Of a DNA stretch of 34,023 nucleotides, positions 18,103 through 31,543 are shown piece after piece (the first letter of the stretch is position 1; each line of letters begins with the position of its first letter). A program made the translations under genes and the position numbers. Location: positions 1 to 34,023 of the forward strand of contig CALMKO010000029.1 of NCBI GenBank assembly GCA_937867415.1, written 5' to 3'. The notes beneath the pieces are model-generated. The model saw only the letters and a program-made list of their open reading frames with translations, searched no databases and had not been told where the DNA came from. The DNA comes from an uncultured Verrucomicrobiota bacterium. Lineage in GTDB: Bacteria > Verrucomicrobiota > Verrucomicrobiia > Verrucomicrobiales > Akkermansiaceae.

Positions 18103-19140
18103 GTGCCGCACTTGGATATGAAACCTTACTCCGATGGAACGGTGATGAACCGCGATTTTTTGCGCTCGGCATTCCGGTCGATGCTGCTTGCCAGGATCTT
18201 GGAAAACAAACTTTCCAGCCTCTACAAGGCCGGAAAAATCGTCGGCGGAGTTTATCTGGGACGTGGTCAGGAAGCGGTGAGTGCCTGCCTCGGCACCTCG
18301 CTCATCCAGGGCACCGATTTCTTCGCCCCCTTGATCCGGGATCAAGCGGGCCGCACTGCCTTTGGCGAGCCTTTGATCGACTGCACCCGGACCTATCTCG
18401 GCTCGGTGGAGGGCCCCATGCGCGGACGGGACGGGAACATCCACCGCGGTCGCCCGAGCATGGGCATGCCAGCGATGATTTCCCACCTCGGCGCCCAGGT
18501 CCCCGTCGTGGCTGGAATGCTCTTTGCAAAGCGCCTGCAAGGGACGCTTGCCGGGCGCGTCGGGGCCACCTGCATCGGTGATGGCGCCACTTCCACCGGT
18601 GCCTTCCACGAGGGCTTGAATCTGGCAGCCATCGAAGGCCTGCCGCTGGTCATCGTCATCGGCAACAACCAGTTCGCCTACTCCACGCCCAATCACCGCC
18701 AGTTCGCCTGTAAGGACCTGGTGGAAAAGGCCAAGGGCTACGGCGTCGGAGGATTCTCGGTCGATGGAACGGACCTGTTAGCCTGCGCCTCCGTCATCGG
18801 TGAGGCGGTCAAGCGCGCGCGCGAGGGCGGCGGACCGCAAATGGTGGTAGCCCGCTTGCTGCGACTCTCCGGCCATGGCGAGCATGACGATGGATCCTAC
18901 GTCCCTTCGGAAATCCGCAACGGCCACTACGGGCGTGACTGCATCGAGGTGGCGATGCGGCAGTTGGTCGAAAACCAACTGGCCACGGTGGATGAAATTT
19001 TCGCGTGGCAGGATGAATTCGGCGATGACGTCCAGCGCGCGGTCGCCCAAGCCCAGCAAGAAGCCGTGCCGGATCCCTATCAGGAGGACTGGACCGCCCT
19101 CGCCACCCGGTTTCCCATTCCCCAACCCATCTTTCCGTGA
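18103..19140 (+). CDS. pdhA: Pyruvate/2-oxoacid dehydrogenase E1 component alpha subunit
   Basis: GVYLGRGQEAVSACLGTSL, GRPSMGMPAMISHLGAQVPVVAGMLFAKRL, TPP motif GDGATSTGAFHEGLNLAAIEGLPLVIVIGNNQFAYSTP; GTG start (ATG 18118 also possible). Confidence 0.92.
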   Translation: MPHLDMKPYSDGTVMNRDFLRSAFRSMLLARILENKLSSLYKAGKIVGGVYLGRGQEAVSACLGTSLIQGTDFFAPLIRDQAGRTAFGEPLIDCTRTYLGSVEGPMRGRDGNIHRGRPSMGMPAMISHLGAQVPVVAGMLFAKRLQGTLAGRVGATCIGDGATSTGAFHEGLNLAAIEGLPLVIVIGNNQFAYSTPNHRQFACKDLVEKAKGYGVGGFSVDGTDLLACASVIGEAVKRAREGGGPQMVVARLLRLSGHGEHDDGSYVPSEIRNGHYGRDCIEVAMRQLVENQLATVDEIFAWQDEFGDDVQRAVAQAQQEAVPDPYQEDWTALATRFPIPQPIFP

Positions 19141-20102
19141 GTGTGACCTATATCGATGCGATTCGTGAAGCGCAGGAAAAGCTCCTGCGCGAGGATGACC
19201 GTGTGTTTCTCTATGGCCAGGACATCGCGACCTTCGGCGGTGCGTTCAAGGCCACCAAGGGACTCGCCGAGCAGTTTCCCAACCGCGTGTTCGACGCGCC
19301 CATCTCGGAAGACGCGATGATCGGCATGGCTGTCGGTGCGGCGATCGAAGGGATGCGGCCGATCGTCGAGATGCAGTTCGCGGACTTCTCGTCGCTGGCG
19401 TTCAACCAACTCGTTAATCAAGCGGCTACCCATTTCTACCGGACTGGGGTGCCGATCCCGATCACCGTGCGCCTGCCCTCGGGCGGAACTCCCGGCTCCG
19501 GGCCTTTCCACAGCCAGAGCATGGAAGGAATCTACGCTCAATACCCGGGCCTGGTCGTTCTCACACCGGCCACGGTTTCAGACGCCTATCACATGTTGTT
19601 AGATGGGGTGGCGCTGGATGATCCGGTCATTTTCTGTGAGCACAAGTTCCTCTACCGCTGGCTCAAGGCCAAGTCCATTAACGGTGATCACCTCCCGATC
19701 GGTCAGGCCCGCATCACCCGCCCCGGCAAGCACGCCACGGTGGTGGCCTACAGCGCCATGGTCCACGAGGCCGTGCGTGCGGCGGACCGCCTCGCGCAGG
19801 ATGGCTGGGAAATCGAAGTGGTGGACCTGCGCTCGGTCAAGCCCCTCGATCTCGACACGATTCTTGCCTCGGTCGCCCGGACCGGGCGCTTGCTTGCGGT
19901 CGGTGAGGCGTTTCCCTGGGGCGGCGTCACGGCAGAGGTGATTGCACGGGTATCGGAAGAAGGCTTCCACCTGCTGGATGCCCCGCCACAGCGCTTGAAT
20001 GCCCGTGACACTCCCGTCCCATATCACCCCAAGCTCTGGGCGGCGCACCGGCCGACTCCCGAGTCCATTTGCGAAGCTCTCCGGAAACTGCTCTCCTTCT
20101 AG
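19137..20102 (+). CDS. pdhB: Pyruvate/2-oxoacid dehydrogenase E1 component beta subunit
   Basis: Overlaps E1alpha by 4 nt (GTGA); VTYIDAIREAQEKLLREDDRVFLYGQDIATFGGAFKATKGL; FDAPISEDAMIGMAVGAAIEGMRPIVEMQFADF; HSQSMEGIYAQYPGL. Confidence 0.93.
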   Translation: MSVTYIDAIREAQEKLLREDDRVFLYGQDIATFGGAFKATKGLAEQFPNRVFDAPISEDAMIGMAVGAAIEGMRPIVEMQFADFSSLAFNQLVNQAATHFYRTGVPIPITVRLPSGGTPGSGPFHSQSMEGIYAQYPGLVVLTPATVSDAYHMLLDGVALDDPVIFCEHKFLYRWLKAKSINGDHLPIGQARITRPGKHATVVAYSAMVHEAVRAADRLAQDGWEIEVVDLRSVKPLDLDTILASVARTGRLLAVGEAFPWGGVTAEVIARVSEEGFHLLDAPPQRLNARDTPVPYHPKLWAAHRPTPESICEALRKLLSF

Positions 20103-20130
20103 TCATCCCCGCATTTCAGCTTTCACCAAA

Positions 20131-21369
20131 ATGCCAACCGTCCCCATTTTAATGCCACAGCTCGGCGAGTCCATCGCCGAGGCCACCGTCATCCGCCTCG
20201 GCATCGCCGTGGGGGATGCTGTCCGCACGGACCAGGAAATCATCGAGGTGGAAACCAACAAGGCGGTGATGGGGGTGACCACGCTCTGCGATGGAGTCGT
20301 CTCGGAATTGCGGGCCCAGGAAGGCGTTTCCTATTCCGTCGGAACGTTGTTAGGCCTGCTTGAGGTGACAGATGCGGAAGTGGCGCGAACCGGCGTGGAA
20401 TCGCTCGAATCGATCGAAACCAAGCGGATCGCCTCGCAGCAGGCCTCCAACCCGACGCAGGCGGAGGCGAACCTGCACTTCGCCCTGGATGATGACGCTT
20501 ACGAAGAAGCACCCGCCGTGGTGCCAAGCGTCAAAGGTCTGCCCGTGCCCACCGGAGTTCTGGGTGCTCATTACATTTCCCCGAGGATGAGGGCGCGCAT
20601 GGATGATCTCGGAATCCGCGAGGCAGACATCTCTGCCATCGTCGGCACCGGCGCGGGTGGCCGGGTCACGGTGGAGGACCTGGAGCGCTTCCTCGACTAT
20701 CTCGATGCCTGGCCGAGTTCCCCGGCGTCTCCCATGCGTCTGGCCGTGGCGGACGCCATGCGCCGCAGTTGGACCCGCCCGCTGGCGACGGTGGGCCTGC
20801 CGCTGCTTCTGGACCGGGCGCTCGATCACCGCCGCGGGCAGAATCCCAAGCCGGGCCTGACACTCTATCTGCTCCGGGCCTTCGCGCTAGCCCTCACGGA
20901 AAGCCCAGCCACCGCCGGATACCTCATCGGTGACAAGGTCGTGCACCCCCGGTCCTTCGACATCGGCGTGGCCGTCCAGGTGGAAGACGGGGTGCTTGTT
21001 CCGGTGGTGCGAAAGGTGGACCAGAAGCCTCTGGCGGAACTCGTCGCCGAGTATGATGATCTGGTGGATCGCGCGCGCCGGCGCCGCCTGACGGAACAGG
21101 ATTGCAGCGGCGGCATCGCCACCGTGACGAATTTCGGAACCTTCGGCCTCACCACCGGAACGCCGATTCCGCTGCCTAACGAAACCTTGATCCTCGGGAT
21201 CGGTGCCGGGGCGAAGCGGCCGGTGTGGAGCGCGCAGATCGAGGCGTTCGTCCCGGCGACCGAGGCGGACCTGCTCCTCACCTTCGACCACCGGGTAGTT
21301 GACGGCGGCGGCGCGGGTGTCCTGCTCAACCGCGTGGCGGCCCTTCTTCAAAAACCCGCCGATCTCTAA
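20131..21369 (+). CDS. Dihydrolipoamide acyltransferase E2 component
   Basis: Lipoyl domain LMPQLGESIAEATVIRLGIAVGDAVRTDQEIIEVETNKAVM; peripheral subunit-binding domain ISPRMRARMDDLGIREADISAIVGTGAGGRVTVEDLE; catalytic FDHRVVDGGGAG. Trimmed to ATG 20131. Confidence 0.93.
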   Translation: MPTVPILMPQLGESIAEATVIRLGIAVGDAVRTDQEIIEVETNKAVMGVTTLCDGVVSELRAQEGVSYSVGTLLGLLEVTDAEVARTGVESLESIETKRIASQQASNPTQAEANLHFALDDDAYEEAPAVVPSVKGLPVPTGVLGAHYISPRMRARMDDLGIREADISAIVGTGAGGRVTVEDLERFLDYLDAWPSSPASPMRLAVADAMRRSWTRPLATVGLPLLLDRALDHRRGQNPKPGLTLYLLRAFALALTESPATAGYLIGDKVVHPRSFDIGVAVQVEDGVLVPVVRKVDQKPLAELVAEYDDLVDRARRRRLTEQDCSGGIATVTNFGTFGLTTGTPIPLPNETLILGIGAGAKRPVWSAQIEAFVPATEADLLLTFDHRVVDGGGAGVLLNRVAALLQKPADL

Positions 21370-21389
21370 CCCCTGCTCCCGACTCCATT

Positions 21390-22028
21390 TTGGAACCTGT
21401 TGAAAAAATTGGTAAGATCGACATCCCGAAGAAGGCAATCTATCGGTTGTCGATCTATTACCGCTGCCTTCAGAAGTTGAGCTCCAACGAATTGGACACC
21501 GTAAGTTCCACCACCCTCGCGCGTGCGGCCGGAGTGAAGCCCGCGCAGCTGCGCAAGGACTTGGCTTACTTCGGTCAATTCGGCACACGGGGTCTTGGCT
21601 ATCCGGTGGAGATCCTGGCCGCGACGATTCGTGAAGCTCTGGGACGGGAGCACCTCCAGCCGGTCATCCTGGTCGGGGCCGGTAATCTGGGCTCGGCCTT
21701 GCTGCGCTACCACGGATTTGAAAAAGAAGGCTTCGAGGTCATCGCCGCGTTCGATGCGAATCCGGAAGCCACCCGTGCCCGTGGGGTAACCATTCCGGTG
21801 TTCGCTGACTCGGAGTTGGAGTCGTTTATCAAATCGGAGTCCGTGAAGCTCGCCATCCTCTGCGTGCCGGTCGAGTTTGCGCAGGCCGTGGTCAATCGAC
21901 TGGTGGCGGCGGGCATTCAAGGCGTGCTCAATTTCTCGCCGATCGTGCTTGAGGTAGGCCCGGAAGTCACCGTCAACAACGTGGATCTGGCGCTGGAACT
22001 CGAACACCTCAGCTACTTCATCCGATAA
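21390..22028 (+). CDS. rex: Redox-sensing transcriptional repressor Rex
   Basis: IPKKAIYRLSIYYRCL...VSSTTLARAAGVKPAQLRKDLAYFGQFGTRGLGYPV; Rossmann VILVGAGNLGSALLRYHGF; TTG start. Confidence 0.95.
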   Translation: MEPVEKIGKIDIPKKAIYRLSIYYRCLQKLSSNELDTVSSTTLARAAGVKPAQLRKDLAYFGQFGTRGLGYPVEILAATIREALGREHLQPVILVGAGNLGSALLRYHGFEKEGFEVIAAFDANPEATRARGVTIPVFADSELESFIKSESVKLAILCVPVEFAQAVVNRLVAAGIQGVLNFSPIVLEVGPEVTVNNVDLALELEHLSYFIR

Positions 22029-22029
22029 A

Positions 22030-22632
22030 ATGCCAGAGATACCGGAAAATCATTCTAAAGTTTCCGGTGGATCATCCGTTACTTTGGAAGTGCCATCTCC
22101 AGAACTTGATGATTCCTCCGGCAGCTCCAGTCGCGAGCGGTTCATCGAGCAGGCGCTGCACGATTACGAATCACCACTCATCGGCTATGCATTCACCCTG
22201 CTCAATGACATCGACAGCGCCCGGGACGTGGTTCAGGATACCTTCCTGCGGCTCTGTCGTCAGGATCCCGCAAAGGTCCAGGATCAGCTCAAGGCCTGGC
22301 TTTTTACGGTTTGCCGGAATCGTGCTTTCGATGTGCTGCGCAAAGAAAAGCGCACGGAACCTCTCGAAGAAATCCACTGGCAAAAGGTCGCCGGTCCCGG
22401 CCTCCAACCCGATGAACGCCTCGATCTCCAGGAACGGCTTGCCCAGCTGCGCTCCCTCTTGAGTCATCTCACACCCAATCAACGCGAAGTGATCATCCTC
22501 AAGTTCCAACAAGGCCTGACCTATCAGGAAATCCATCAGGTCACCAGTCTCAGCACCAGCAACATCGGATTCCTGATCCACGCCGGATTGAGGCGCCTGC
22601 GGGACTCCCTGCCTGACGATCTGCTTTCTTAA
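22030..22632 (+). CDS. ECF-type RNA polymerase sigma-70 family factor
   Basis: Region 2: LIGYAFTLLNDIDSARDVVQDTFLRLCRQ...LKAWLFTVCRNRAFDVLRKEKR; region 4: LSHLTPNQREVIILKFQQGLTYQEIHQVTSLSTSNIGFLIHAGLRRLRDSL. Confidence 0.92.
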   Translation: MPEIPENHSKVSGGSSVTLEVPSPELDDSSGSSSRERFIEQALHDYESPLIGYAFTLLNDIDSARDVVQDTFLRLCRQDPAKVQDQLKAWLFTVCRNRAFDVLRKEKRTEPLEEIHWQKVAGPGLQPDERLDLQERLAQLRSLLSHLTPNQREVIILKFQQGLTYQEIHQVTSLSTSNIGFLIHAGLRRLRDSLPDDLLS

Positions 22633-22653
22633 ATCAAGCCATTCCAAGAATTC

Positions 22654-23874
22654 ATGAGACTCTATCCAGAAGACCCCCGGCTCAGCGCCTACGCCTTGGG
22701 TGAGCTTGATGCGGAAGAAGCTGCCGCAGTCGAAAGCGCTGCCGCCGCCGATCCTTCACTTCAACAGGTCATCGACGATTCCGCTGCGATGCAAGGCCTG
22801 CTGGAAAAGCGGCTTGCGATCCGCCCGGTGAGCATGCTTCCCAAGCAGCGTGAGAATGTGCTGCGGGCATCCCAAGGAGAGTTACGCCTGGAAAGGCCAG
22901 CTGCCTTCGCCTCCTTCTGTGAAATCATGAAGCCCCGGCTCATCCCTGCGGCGGCGGTGCTCGTACTCAGTGCGGCAACCCTGATCCTGCTTCAGATGCC
23001 CGACGATGAAGCCCCGCCACTCGCCCAGAAATCACCGCCCACCCAAGCGCCTGTCGCTGCGGCGGAGCCTCCACCACCCCTCAAGCCGACTCCGCCGTGG
23101 TCTCCCCACCGCGGCTCGGTGAAGGTCGCTGATTTTCCAACCTTCCAAGTCCCCATCCAAGTCGGCTCGGGAAACCTGGATCTGATCCGGAAATCCATCC
23201 TCGACGAAGAAAAGCTGCCCGCCGTCAAACAGGTCAGGCTTGAGGAGATTTTAAACGCATTCCCACTCCGGCTCAACGGCGTGACCGCGCTTGCGAAGCG
23301 ACCCGCGGGGAATTGGCATCCTGACAATCGCGACAGCGGAATCACCTCACACCTCGCGACGCTTTCCACGGAAATGATCGCGTGCCCCTGGAAGCCTTCC
23401 GCAACGTTGTTGTTGGTTTCCCTGCGGGGAAATGCGCAGGCGGATTGCGAGGCCAAGTTGGTGTTCCGCCCGAATCCATCCACCGTTCTCCGCTACCGGC
23501 TTCTCGGGTCCACCTCGGACACGGGCGAGCCGGCCGCCAGTAGCTCCAGTCGCCTCGCTGCCAAGGCGGCTACCACGCTCGCCATCGAGATCGAGCCATC
23601 CGGTGCGGACCTTGACTTCGGCGCGCTCGAGTGGTTCATCAACTCCGCCCAGGCCCCGTCCATCTCCCTCATGCGCAACGACGAGGCGGAACCCTCAAAC
23701 GACGCCCGTTTCGCGGTCCTCGCCTGCACCTACGCCCAGTGGCTCGCAGGCGAGCAAGTCGGCTTCATCGACGCGGACATCGTCGCCGCCCTCGCACGCG
23801 AAGTCGCCTCGGGAAAACTCGAAGCGGACCGCGTGGAATTCCTGTCGATCATCGACAAGTCATTGCACTTGTGA
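22654..23874 (+). CDS. Putative membrane anti-sigma factor with YfbK-like flanking domains but no vWA domain
   Basis: 21 nt after the ECF sigma; N-terminal DPRLSAYALGELDAEEAAAVESAAAADPSLQ; TM LIPAAAVLVLSAATLILL; YfbK-like LIRKSILDEEKLPAVKQVRLEEILNAFP...CPWKPSATLLLVSLRG then AKLVFRPNPSTVLRYRLLG...FAVLACTYAQWLAG...DADIVAALAREVASGKLEADRVEFLSIIDKSL. Confidence 0.65.
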   Translation: MRLYPEDPRLSAYALGELDAEEAAAVESAAAADPSLQQVIDDSAAMQGLLEKRLAIRPVSMLPKQRENVLRASQGELRLERPAAFASFCEIMKPRLIPAAAVLVLSAATLILLQMPDDEAPPLAQKSPPTQAPVAAAEPPPPLKPTPPWSPHRGSVKVADFPTFQVPIQVGSGNLDLIRKSILDEEKLPAVKQVRLEEILNAFPLRLNGVTALAKRPAGNWHPDNRDSGITSHLATLSTEMIACPWKPSATLLLVSLRGNAQADCEAKLVFRPNPSTVLRYRLLGSTSDTGEPAASSSSRLAAKAATTLAIEIEPSGADLDFGALEWFINSAQAPSISLMRNDEAEPSNDARFAVLACTYAQWLAGEQVGFIDADIVAALAREVASGKLEADRVEFLSIIDKSLHL

Positions 23875-24076: not shown

Positions 24077-25090
24077 TCAATCTCCGAGGCAGAATAAAGC
24101 CTCCGCGCCTTTGCGCTCGATGAGAACAGCGGAGCCCACGGGTAACTTCCCAGTCACAGGCTCTCCATTGCCGACGCAGATCCATTGGTTGCCCGTGGTG
24201 AGGTAGTAGGTGGAAAATCCTCCGGAGATGCCATCCGTCACCCAGACTTTATCCGCTTCCACGGAGCTGTCGCTTTTTTGTAGGTCGTTTTCCAAACCGA
24301 GCGACTGGAGATCGGAGCAGGCGGGATAAGGGGTCGCGACGAGATTAAGGCCGGGCTTGACAACGTGGCGGGTCGGCCCGGTCTTGATTTCGCCGGTCGT
24401 GGTGATTTTTACGGCGGTTTTTCCCTTACGCTGAACGATTAGCCCGTCCACATGAACCAAAGGCACATCGCCGACAGGCTCGAGGGTGGCGGCGTCCACC
24501 CAGCCAGCGCTGCCATCCGGGTGTTGGAGGATGAAACAGCGACGGAAATCGCCGAACGTGGCGCCCTGCGGGATCAAGACGATGTCCGCACGATCTGGAT
24601 TCCCGCCGGAAAGAAGTCCGGTGAACCGCGGATTGAAAACCGAATTCAGGGTGGCGGCCGGGCGAAGACTGAACCGATCGCCCGGTTTCACGCCACTGGC
24701 GGCGAGATCATCGGACAAGGTGAGCCGGATACCTTGCCAACAGGTGATTTCCTGAATCACGCCGGCCTTGTCGCCGCTTGTGATTTCGAGGATGTAGGTC
24801 TTTCCAGCCGTGAGCGGGAGTTCGGATAGGACCTTGTCTTTGCCATTTAAAATGGAGAGTTCGGCGAAGTCTTTGCCAATGGACCCAATGCGGCCTTGGG
24901 TGACGACGTTGTGGTGGAGGCGAAGACCGACCAGGTTCATGCCCGGTTGCACCCCCCCGGAATCGAAGCCGTCTAATGCTGGGGAACCTCCAAGCGTAGC
25001 GAAACCTACGGGGGTGGTGAAGGCGGCTTCCACGGCGAATGCGGAGGTGCCGAGGCAAAGAAAAAGAGCGCAGCTAAGATTTCTTTTCAC
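24077..25090 (-). CDS. Secreted protein resembling the TIGR02597 family
   Basis: GTG start at 25090; signal peptide MKRNLSCALFLCLGTSAFAVEA; TTPVGFATLGG...GVQPGMNLVGLRLHHNVVTQGRIGSI...TYILEITSGDKAGVIQEITCWQGIRLTLSDDL. Confidence 0.6.
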   Translation of the reverse strand: MKRNLSCALFLCLGTSAFAVEAAFTTPVGFATLGGSPALDGFDSGGVQPGMNLVGLRLHHNVVTQGRIGSIGKDFAELSILNGKDKVLSELPLTAGKTYILEITSGDKAGVIQEITCWQGIRLTLSDDLAASGVKPGDRFSLRPAATLNSVFNPRFTGLLSGGNPDRADIVLIPQGATFGDFRRCFILQHPDGSAGWVDAATLEPVGDVPLVHVDGLIVQRKGKTAVKITTTGEIKTGPTRHVVKPGLNLVATPYPACSDLQSLGLENDLQKSDSSVEADKVWVTDGISGGFSTYYLTTGNQWICVGNGEPVTGKLPVGSAVLIERKGAEALFCLGD

Positions 25091-25505
25091 AAAAGAAAGG
25101 GAATCATTTCTGTTGGGTGACACAAGGTATTTCCGCCACCCTGTTCCGTCATGGCGCAAGATTGAAGTTACGACTCTGCCGAAGTCCCGATCCGATGCGG
25201 TCCACCGCATCCATCTTCCAAATGTTTGGACTTTCGGCGCGTTGAGGTGGCTAGGTGCGTCTTCAAGTCTCTCGTCATTGATGGCGCTGCGGAGCGACGA
25301 TCTTCAAGGACGGGTTTTGCGAGTGGAGCGATGGTGAGGGGATCGCTGAAAGAAAGCATGGCTTGTTGAATTCTCAACGGCTAAACCGGCGCATCACTCG
25401 GAGCTTGGTTAATGAACGAGTAAAACGGAATTCAGAGACAAACACCTTTTGGCGGCGCAAATCTTGATTTCTTGTCTTTCGTTACTGCCAGATGCCCCAA
25501 GGAGC

Positions 25506-29666: not shown

Positions 29667-30503
29667 ATGAGTCATCCAGCAATCACCGAGCAGTCAAGAT
29701 TCTCCTTCTGGGGTGGTTTTTTGCGGCTGATCTTGCTGTGGGTGCTGCTCGCTTTGCCACAATCCACCCGGGCCGTGGCGGTGGACCGGGAGTTGGTCTT
29801 GCTGGTGGATGTCAGTAACTCAGGAGTCAGCAAATCCCAGTTCGACTCGCTGCTGGCGGGTTACTCCTCCGCCATGTCGAGCTCGCAGGTCCTGGCATCC
29901 ATCCAAGCGGGAACCCACGGCCGGATTGCGGTCTCCCTGATGCTTTACGGCGGGGCGGGTTTCCAGCAAGTCGGTATTCCTTGGATGTCGGTTGCCAATG
30001 CGGCGGATGCAGCTCAATTCACAAGTCTCGCCACCTCACTGAACAAGCCAAACGGCACGGGAAAAGCCGGGGTGGGGCAGGCCATCACGGCTGCCAGGAA
30101 CAGTTTTGGCACAGAGACCGGCGGCGTTTCCAACGGTTTCGAGAGCACGCTTCAGATCATCGACATCGCTGCGGCGGTTGAGCCCTCCCCGGGAAATGCG
30201 GCGGCTGATCTCGCTGCGCGGAACGGGGCGCTCCTTTCGGGGGTCGATCTCATCAATGTCCTCGCACTCGGAAACAAAGCTGCGGACATCGCCGCCTATT
30301 ATTCAGCCCATGTGATCGGGACCACTCTCCCTGGAGTGGTGCCTTCCTCGACGACTTCTCCTGTATTCAGCGGATCACTGAACACCGTTCTCAACAGTCA
30401 GCTGGGAAGTTCGATCACGGCGGTTCCCGAGCCTCACGCGGCGACCGGGTTCATGCTCGCTGTTTGTCTCGGGCTGTTCTGCCGCCAAAGGCGCAAATCG
30501 TGA
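29667..30503 (+). CDS. DUF1194 (vWA-like) protein with PEP-CTERM sorting signal
   Basis: VDRELVLLVDVSNSGVSKSQF...GRIAVSLMLYGGAGFQQVGIPWMSV...NGFESTLQIIDI; C-terminus VPEPHAATGFMLAVCLGLFCRQRRKS. Confidence 0.82.
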   Translation: MSHPAITEQSRFSFWGGFLRLILLWVLLALPQSTRAVAVDRELVLLVDVSNSGVSKSQFDSLLAGYSSAMSSSQVLASIQAGTHGRIAVSLMLYGGAGFQQVGIPWMSVANAADAAQFTSLATSLNKPNGTGKAGVGQAITAARNSFGTETGGVSNGFESTLQIIDIAAAVEPSPGNAAADLAARNGALLSGVDLINVLALGNKAADIAAYYSAHVIGTTLPGVVPSSTTSPVFSGSLNTVLNSQLGSSITAVPEPHAATGFMLAVCLGLFCRQRRKS

Positions 30504-30703: not shown

Positions 30704-31543
30704 ATGAAAACTGCATCCCCAATGTCCCCGAGTCAGCCTTCTTTCCTGCCACGCAGGGCAAGGGTGCTGCTGTGCGCCTTGTTGATGGGATTCGCACCAC
30801 AAGCCCGCGCTGAGAGGGTGGATACGGAACTGGTCCTTCTTGTTGACATTAGCCGCTCCGGATCGAACCAGACGCAGTTCAGTACCTTGATGAGCGCCTA
30901 CGCCTCGTCATTCACCAGTGCGGAGGTCTTGAATTCGATTCAATCCGGCCAATACGGCCGCATCGCCGTCTCGCTCCAGTTCTATGGAGGAGCATCGCTT
31001 CAACGGGTCGGGATTCCTTGGATGTCCATTGGAAATGCCACGGAGGCTGCGAATTTCGCGGCGCTGACCCAATCTGTCGTGAGACCGGTTTCCTCCGGAG
31101 CCTCGGCGGTGGCGCCTGCCCTCGCCGCAGCCACTCGTTCGTTCGGCACGGAAACGGGGGGCGCTTCCAACGGGTTCGAGAGCAATTTGCAGATCATCGA
31201 CGTGGTGGCCACCACGGTGCCTAACAACCGCACCACCGCCGCAGTCCGTGCAGCGGGAGACGCTGCCATCGCCTCGGGAGTCGATGTCATCAACGCCATC
31301 GCTCTGGGTGGGAGAGCCACCAGCATCGCGAACTATTTCAGAGCTAACGTGGTTGATAGCACGGTGGACGGCATTGCCCCCACGGTGGCGTCTTCCTTGA
31401 TCAACCGCACCCTGGCCCCGACCCTGACGAGCGCCATGGTTACCACCATGGAAGCTCCGCTCGCGGCGATTCCTGAGCCAGGCGTGGGACTTGGATTGAT
31501 CGTCACCACGTGTCTTGTCGTGCTCCGCCGCCGCAGAAACTAA
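30704..31543 (+). CDS. DUF1194 (vWA-like) protein with PEP-CTERM sorting signal (paralog of 29667)
   Basis: VDTELVLLVDISRSGSNQTQF...GRIAVSLQFYGGASLQRVGIPWMSI...SFGTETGGASNGFESNLQIIDV; C-terminus IPEPGVGLGLIVTTCLVVLRRRRN. Confidence 0.82.
   Translation: MKTASPMSPSQPSFLPRRARVLLCALLMGFAPQARAERVDTELVLLVDISRSGSNQTQFSTLMSAYASSFTSAEVLNSIQSGQYGRIAVSLQFYGGASLQRVGIPWMSIGNATEAANFAALTQSVVRPVSSGASAVAPALAAATRSFGTETGGASNGFESNLQIIDVVATTVPNNRTTAAVRAAGDAAIASGVDVINAIALGGRATSIANYFRANVVDSTVDGIAPTVASSLINRTLAPTLTSAMVTTMEAPLAAIPEPGVGLGLIVTTCLVVLRRRRN

Follow-up and report, generated by a model that had tools for sequence, protein, structure and literature searches.

The window analysed here, a stretch of 34,023 nucleotides from an uncultured Verrucomicrobiota bacterium of the Akkermansiaceae (contig CALMKO010000029.1 of an assembly in 470 contigs), encodes an anti-sigma-like membrane protein (Table 1). 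Its gene starts only 21 nucleotides behind that of an ECF sigma factor on the same strand, and just 5' of the sigma gene lies the gene of a Rex-type repressor, which is in turn preceded by genes of a 2-oxoacid (pyruvate-type) dehydrogenase, namely those of its components E1 and E2. The order E1a-E1b-E2-Rex-sigma-anti-sigma (18103-23874, forward strand) is kept within the genus, in the related loci L003-L006 as far as their contigs extend, with the exception that no sigma gene follows Rex in L005. Compared with the window, the dehydrogenase and Rex genes of these loci are 85-98% identical whereas sigma and anti-sigma genes reach only 46-72%. Downstream, on the opposite strand (24077-25210), a protein of 377 amino acids without a Pfam match is encoded.

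Table 1. Coordinates of the vWA-less gene, its parts and its two 5' neighbours in the window
Feature	Position (nt)	Strand	Basis
Rex-type redox-sensing repressor	21390-22028	+	Pfam CoA_binding and Put_DNA-bind_N; synteny
ECF sigma factor, presumed partner	22030-22632	+	Pfam Sigma70_r2 2e-11, Sigma70_r4_2 4e-10
vWA-less YfbK-type anti-sigma-like membrane protein, 406 aa	22654-23874	+	ATG start; Pfam, profiles
Anti-sigma-like helical N-terminal segment, residues 1-80	22654-22893	+	NCBIfam antisigma 7e-5 (below the curated cut-off); homologous segment in ECF-linked YfbKs of full length
Single TM helix, about residues 96-114	22939-22995	+	Hydropathy window 2.24; AlphaFold helix 86-113 in low-confidence part
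YfbK N-flank (vWF_A, PF12450-like), residues 158-259	23125-23430	+	Pfam, profiles
Junction, vWA site of full-length relatives, residues 260-264	23431-23445	+	5-residue turn between two predicted strands
YfbK C-flank (YfbK_C, PF12034-like), residues 265-406	23446-23871	+	Pfam, profiles

The protein begins with DPRLSAYALGELDAEEAAAVE and contains no HxxxCxxC zinc motif, which is equally absent from the vWA-less relatives (0/50) and from the full-length ones (0/27). NCBIfam anti-sigma matches are weak and extend over residues 10-121, and the Pfam family zf-HC2 reaches 0.002. In the AlphaFold model of the whole protein (mean pLDDT 68, pTM 0.56) helices are predicted at residues 8-14, 20-32 and 34-54 of the N-terminal segment. 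Behind the TM helix the window protein alone gives Pfam matches under the gathering score for both flanks, i.e., vWF_A at residues 165-252 (E 6e-4) and YfbK_C at residues 340-403 (E 0.007), and no VWA family matches it at E<=10. At the position of the junction full-length relatives carry a vWA of about 163 amino acids plus linkers. Since no VWA/MIDAS domain is found between the flanks, the protein is to be regarded as YfbK-derived and not as a canonical YfbK. An earlier note, made from the letters of the DNA, had described an intact frame at this place, an anti-sigma-like N-terminus free of the zinc motif, one TM helix and a vWA missing at a junction near nt 23430-23451; all of this is borne out, the junction falls within that range and the architecture is shared by relatives. 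Two cysteines of the predicted periplasmic domain, C244 and C358, are conserved in the genus set (invariant and at least 90%) and possibly have redox relevance beside Rex. About 6-7 kb downstream of the gene the window encodes two adjacent DUF1194 proteins (29667-30503 and about 30818-31357, forward strand), the first of which has the motif DVSNS and also a tail of PEP-CTERM-like type. We take DUF1194 proteins to be vWA-like from their clan membership; supply of a vWA in trans by this pair was rejected since the genus genomes searched show nothing comparable linked to the anti-sigma locus.

As judged from profile searches, the assignment of the flanks is marginal from the window protein alone and it is the matches of its relatives that decide it. 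Pfam finds YfbK_C in L007 (1.2e-7), both vWF_A (9e-16) and YfbK_C (5e-7) in L060, and vWF_A (1e-30) together with YfbK_C (3e-63) but no VWA in protein P0001 from L118. When the C-terminal domain of 18 genus-level vWA-less sequences is compared as a profile with 55 vWA-bearing YfbKs whose flanks were joined, a colinear match over 226 columns is obtained (prob 99.7, E 1.1e-26), which becomes stronger with a wider family set (E 1.2e-37) and vanishes in the reversed-sequence control (prob 0.3). The C-flank tested alone by hhalign gives prob 97, and the N-terminal 110 residues, comprising the anti-sigma and TM part, match full-length YfbKs with prob 99.8 and E 9e-29. The similarity to the regions before and after vWA that the earlier note had pointed out is thus found on both sides, and its suggestion of a reduced architecture is supported by these profiles and by the full-length homologues adjoining ECF sigmas, whose shared N-terminus also speaks against a fold borrowed from an unrelated family where no vWA is expected.

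In the AlphaFold2 model, built from five sequences, the C-terminal domain taken alone is predicted with pLDDT 79 and pTM 0.81, and both flanks form one Ig-like domain, which answers the question, posed with the first description, of whether they fold together. Within this domain, strand 102-110 from the N-flank is adjacent to strand 116-124 from the C-flank, and the five residues between them lie exactly at the junction. With the flanks predicted as a single domain and the junction as a turn of five residues, the vWA looks like a removable insertion, and this explains how it could leave without breaking the domain; going by the alignment, it would sit in the hairpin of residues 260-264 in full-length proteins. 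The best PDB matches in Foldseek are Ig-like sandwiches of adaptin ears (E 3.5e-4, TM about 0.5-0.6 on the target). A PDB sequence search with a full-length protein returns matches to the vWA region only, and with the vWA-less set nothing convincing; no solved structure of YfbK flanks was found by sequence, and the family is seldom mentioned in the literature searched.

Homologues are present in 111 of 290 genomes in an order-wide search, and the genome of the window itself has a single copy, a second YfbK_C having been looked for without success. More than 100 loci were extracted and scanned with three profiles (N-flank, vWA and C-flank) built from seven full-length proteins. Both kinds of protein, whose occurrence beside ECF sigmas had been proposed as a check, are found. 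Full-length relatives (about 560-1,075 amino acids in complete reading frames) show N-flank, vWA and C-flank in that order; the ones that a search by the common N-terminus brought up adjoin ECF sigmas in Verrucomicrobiota. About 50 relatives, several of them from single-contig genomes, give no match to the custom vWA profile, and a separate sigma gene lies immediately 5' on the same strand in 45 of 49 vWA-less loci. All homologues recovered with the window query that belong to its own family (f1) are without vWA, and some f1 genomes hold an additional, separate full-length YfbK (L106-L111, L113). Further vWA-less copies occur in f2 (L054, L064), f4 (L071), f9 (L118, L120, L124) and f18 (L123), and all of them adjoin an ECF sigma gene. 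Among the YfbKs retrieved, the vWA is present in all those without a detected neighbouring sigma (L112, L114, L116_2301, L117, L119, L122, L126, L127), in some of which a divergent sigma may have escaped the profile. In L135 (2451-4282, reverse strand) a YfbK seems to be broken up, as if by a frameshift, into two reading frames that overlap, the break lying between vWA and most of YfbK_C. Viral contigs scanned with the vWA-less alignment and with full-length YfbK contain no relatives.

In relatives both parts of the protein evolve under constraint. Close pairs have an omega of 0.11 and 0.05 in the flanks, i.e., purifying selection, while the N-terminal segment gives 0.10 and 0.15. Columns conserved to at least 90% in vWA-bearing proteins (numbering of L039) were compared with 11 vWA-less groups. 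N364, R617, G620 and E652 persist in nearly every case, E361, P390, W391 and L397 mostly, and the motifs PW, EExxN and YRLxG are largely retained. By contrast, from the motif STFxxDVDTASY, whose DxD varies little or not at all among YfbKs with a vWA, D332 is absent in 10 and D334 in 8 of the 11 vWA-less groups; from this pattern DxD is likely a contact to the vWA.

With the segment homology, the absence of vWA, the gene adjacency, the selection on close relatives and the predicted single-domain fold computed, we consider it probable that the window protein is a reduced membrane anti-sigma factor for the upstream ECF sigma, in which the bare YfbK flank domain acts as periplasmic sensor. The denomination anti-sigma factor follows from homology and gene order. 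As in a class-I-like anti-sigma factor anchored in the membrane, the cytoplasmic N-terminal helices would hold the sigma factor and one TM helix would span the membrane. The periplasmic part would consist of a single Ig-like beta-sandwich plus helices, assembled from the halves on either side of the vWA in YfbK. The vWA itself, an insertion in one hairpin, would have been lost in the ancestor of the copies of the window family, leaving a domain that can still fold. A signal perceived at the flank domain could then release the sigma factor by a change of shape or by proteolysis, without the contribution of the vWA.

Four relatives from the genus complicate this picture. They have no separate sigma gene (L005, mentioned above, L132, which has neither Rex nor sigma after E2, L133 and L134) but still possess the TM helix and flank domain, so sigma control is maybe not the sole or main job; two of these genomes are drafts. 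In the single-contig genomes of L133 (3342-4850) and L134 (3333-4835) a degenerate remnant of ECF sigma region 2 is apparently fused to TM and YfbK flanks, with uncertain start codons, and sigma region 4 as well as the anti-sigma segment are gone. Nevertheless their flank domain is the best kept part (omega about 0.20; 74% identity versus 48-59% elsewhere in the protein), which suggests a role beyond sigma control. Where the sigma gene is missing, the best other ECF sigma of the genome (40-41% identity) is not an obvious replacement, as it comes with a separate partner of 326 amino acids that has no YfbK flanks. A broader proposal can be put forward tentatively: the YfbK flanks may be one split periplasmic signalling domain with a dispensable, repeatedly excised vWA, and in the genus the bare domain may have a function separate from sigma control and therefore outlive both the sigma factor and the anti-sigma segment. 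An independent task of the flank domain, structural or in binding to the envelope, with sigma control secondary or decaying in the genus, appears rather unlikely to us. The four sigma-less loci and the fused remnants speak for it, but the separate adjoining sigma in 45 of 49 vWA-less loci and the constraint on the N-terminal segment in close pairs speak against it.

The reading as a reduced anti-sigma factor is also supported by the history of the vWA. A tree of 97 flank sequences requires four changes of vWA state (bootstrap 4-5), at least three of which are forced by strongly supported (starred) branches. The long vWA-less branches f1, f2 and f4 might attract each other artificially, so that four is a conservative count. 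The vWA-less L118 is nested next to the vWA-bearing L090, with which it shares the genus code and 77% identity (supports 100/82), and compared with L136, a longer fetch of L090, it misses about 180 codons in frame between ...RIGLKGRE and GGTLVTIAKD. This is a clean loss, which leaves 514 amino acids as compared to 693 in the vWA-bearing sister. A second vWA-less pair, L120 and L124, lies inside vWA-bearing f9. Judging from these sequences, vWA loss is widespread in the family of the window and recurrent elsewhere in the phylum. The opposite direction, with an ancestral vWA-less form into which vWA was inserted later, is improbable. The tree is unrooted and does not by itself root the f1 clade, its midpoint root separates two sets that each include vWA-less proteins, and according to the model the flanks can fold without vWA. 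However, the position of L118 and of L120/L124 within vWA-bearing clades means that loss does occur, vWA-bearing YfbKs are spread across the phylum with YfbK_C carried by E. coli, and the vWA-less forms fetched are tied to ECF sigma loci. Chance resemblance, with an anti-sigma factor carrying some unrelated periplasmic domain of Ig-like fold, to which the weak single-protein E-values and the commonness of beta-sandwiches could point, is highly improbable and is refuted by the profile comparison with its colinear two-flank match, failing reversed control and N-terminus shared with full-length YfbKs. That the gene is a pseudogene or an artefact of assembly or annotation, suspected at most from the fragmented assembly, can be discarded with near certainty, as homologues with the same architecture in dozens of genomes, single-contig ones included, and the omega of closely related pairs, well under 1, refute it.

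It is natural to see the vWA as the functional part of a YfbK-type protein, and little has been learnt about the flanks. Repeated loss of the vWA, with flanks remaining under selection, suggests that the flanks represent the signalling core, and L118 and L136 offer a natural pair without and with vWA for asking after the role of each part. In the literature searched no paper treats YfbK together with anti-sigma factors and none deals with DUF3520, and vWA is unmentioned in the ECF papers examined. The closest known systems are full-length ECF-linked YfbKs of Verrucomicrobiota (L039, L044, L136), which have in common with the window protein the zinc-free anti-sigma-like N-terminus, the TM helix, the PF12450/PF12034 flanks and the ECF sigma directly upstream, but differ by their own VWA of about 163 amino acids between the flanks and by the conserved DxD motif that the window protein has lost. 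YfbKs without adjoining ECF sigma (L122, L126, L127) possess the same flanks and have kept vWA in all cases checked; E. coli YfbK is presumably a family member of this kind, without an adjacent ECF sigma. Integrin beta, where the vWA-like beta-I domain is inserted in the Ig-like sandwich of the hybrid domain, provides an analogy only, with a single weak integrin-type match in Foldseek (5e6v, rank 34, prob 0.47) and no vWA in the window protein. With class I anti-sigma factors (ASDI) such as RseA, RskA, RsiW and ChrR the window protein shares the order of sigma and anti-sigma genes; its predicted N-terminal helices may correspond to their helical segment, and a TM helix is common among them. 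In this class the zinc motif is optional (PMC7406223). In contrast with them, its periplasmic part would be the YfbK flank domain, and its sigma binding is presumed. The window protein is best described as a YfbK-derived anti-sigma-like protein with the bare flank domain as its presumed sensor.
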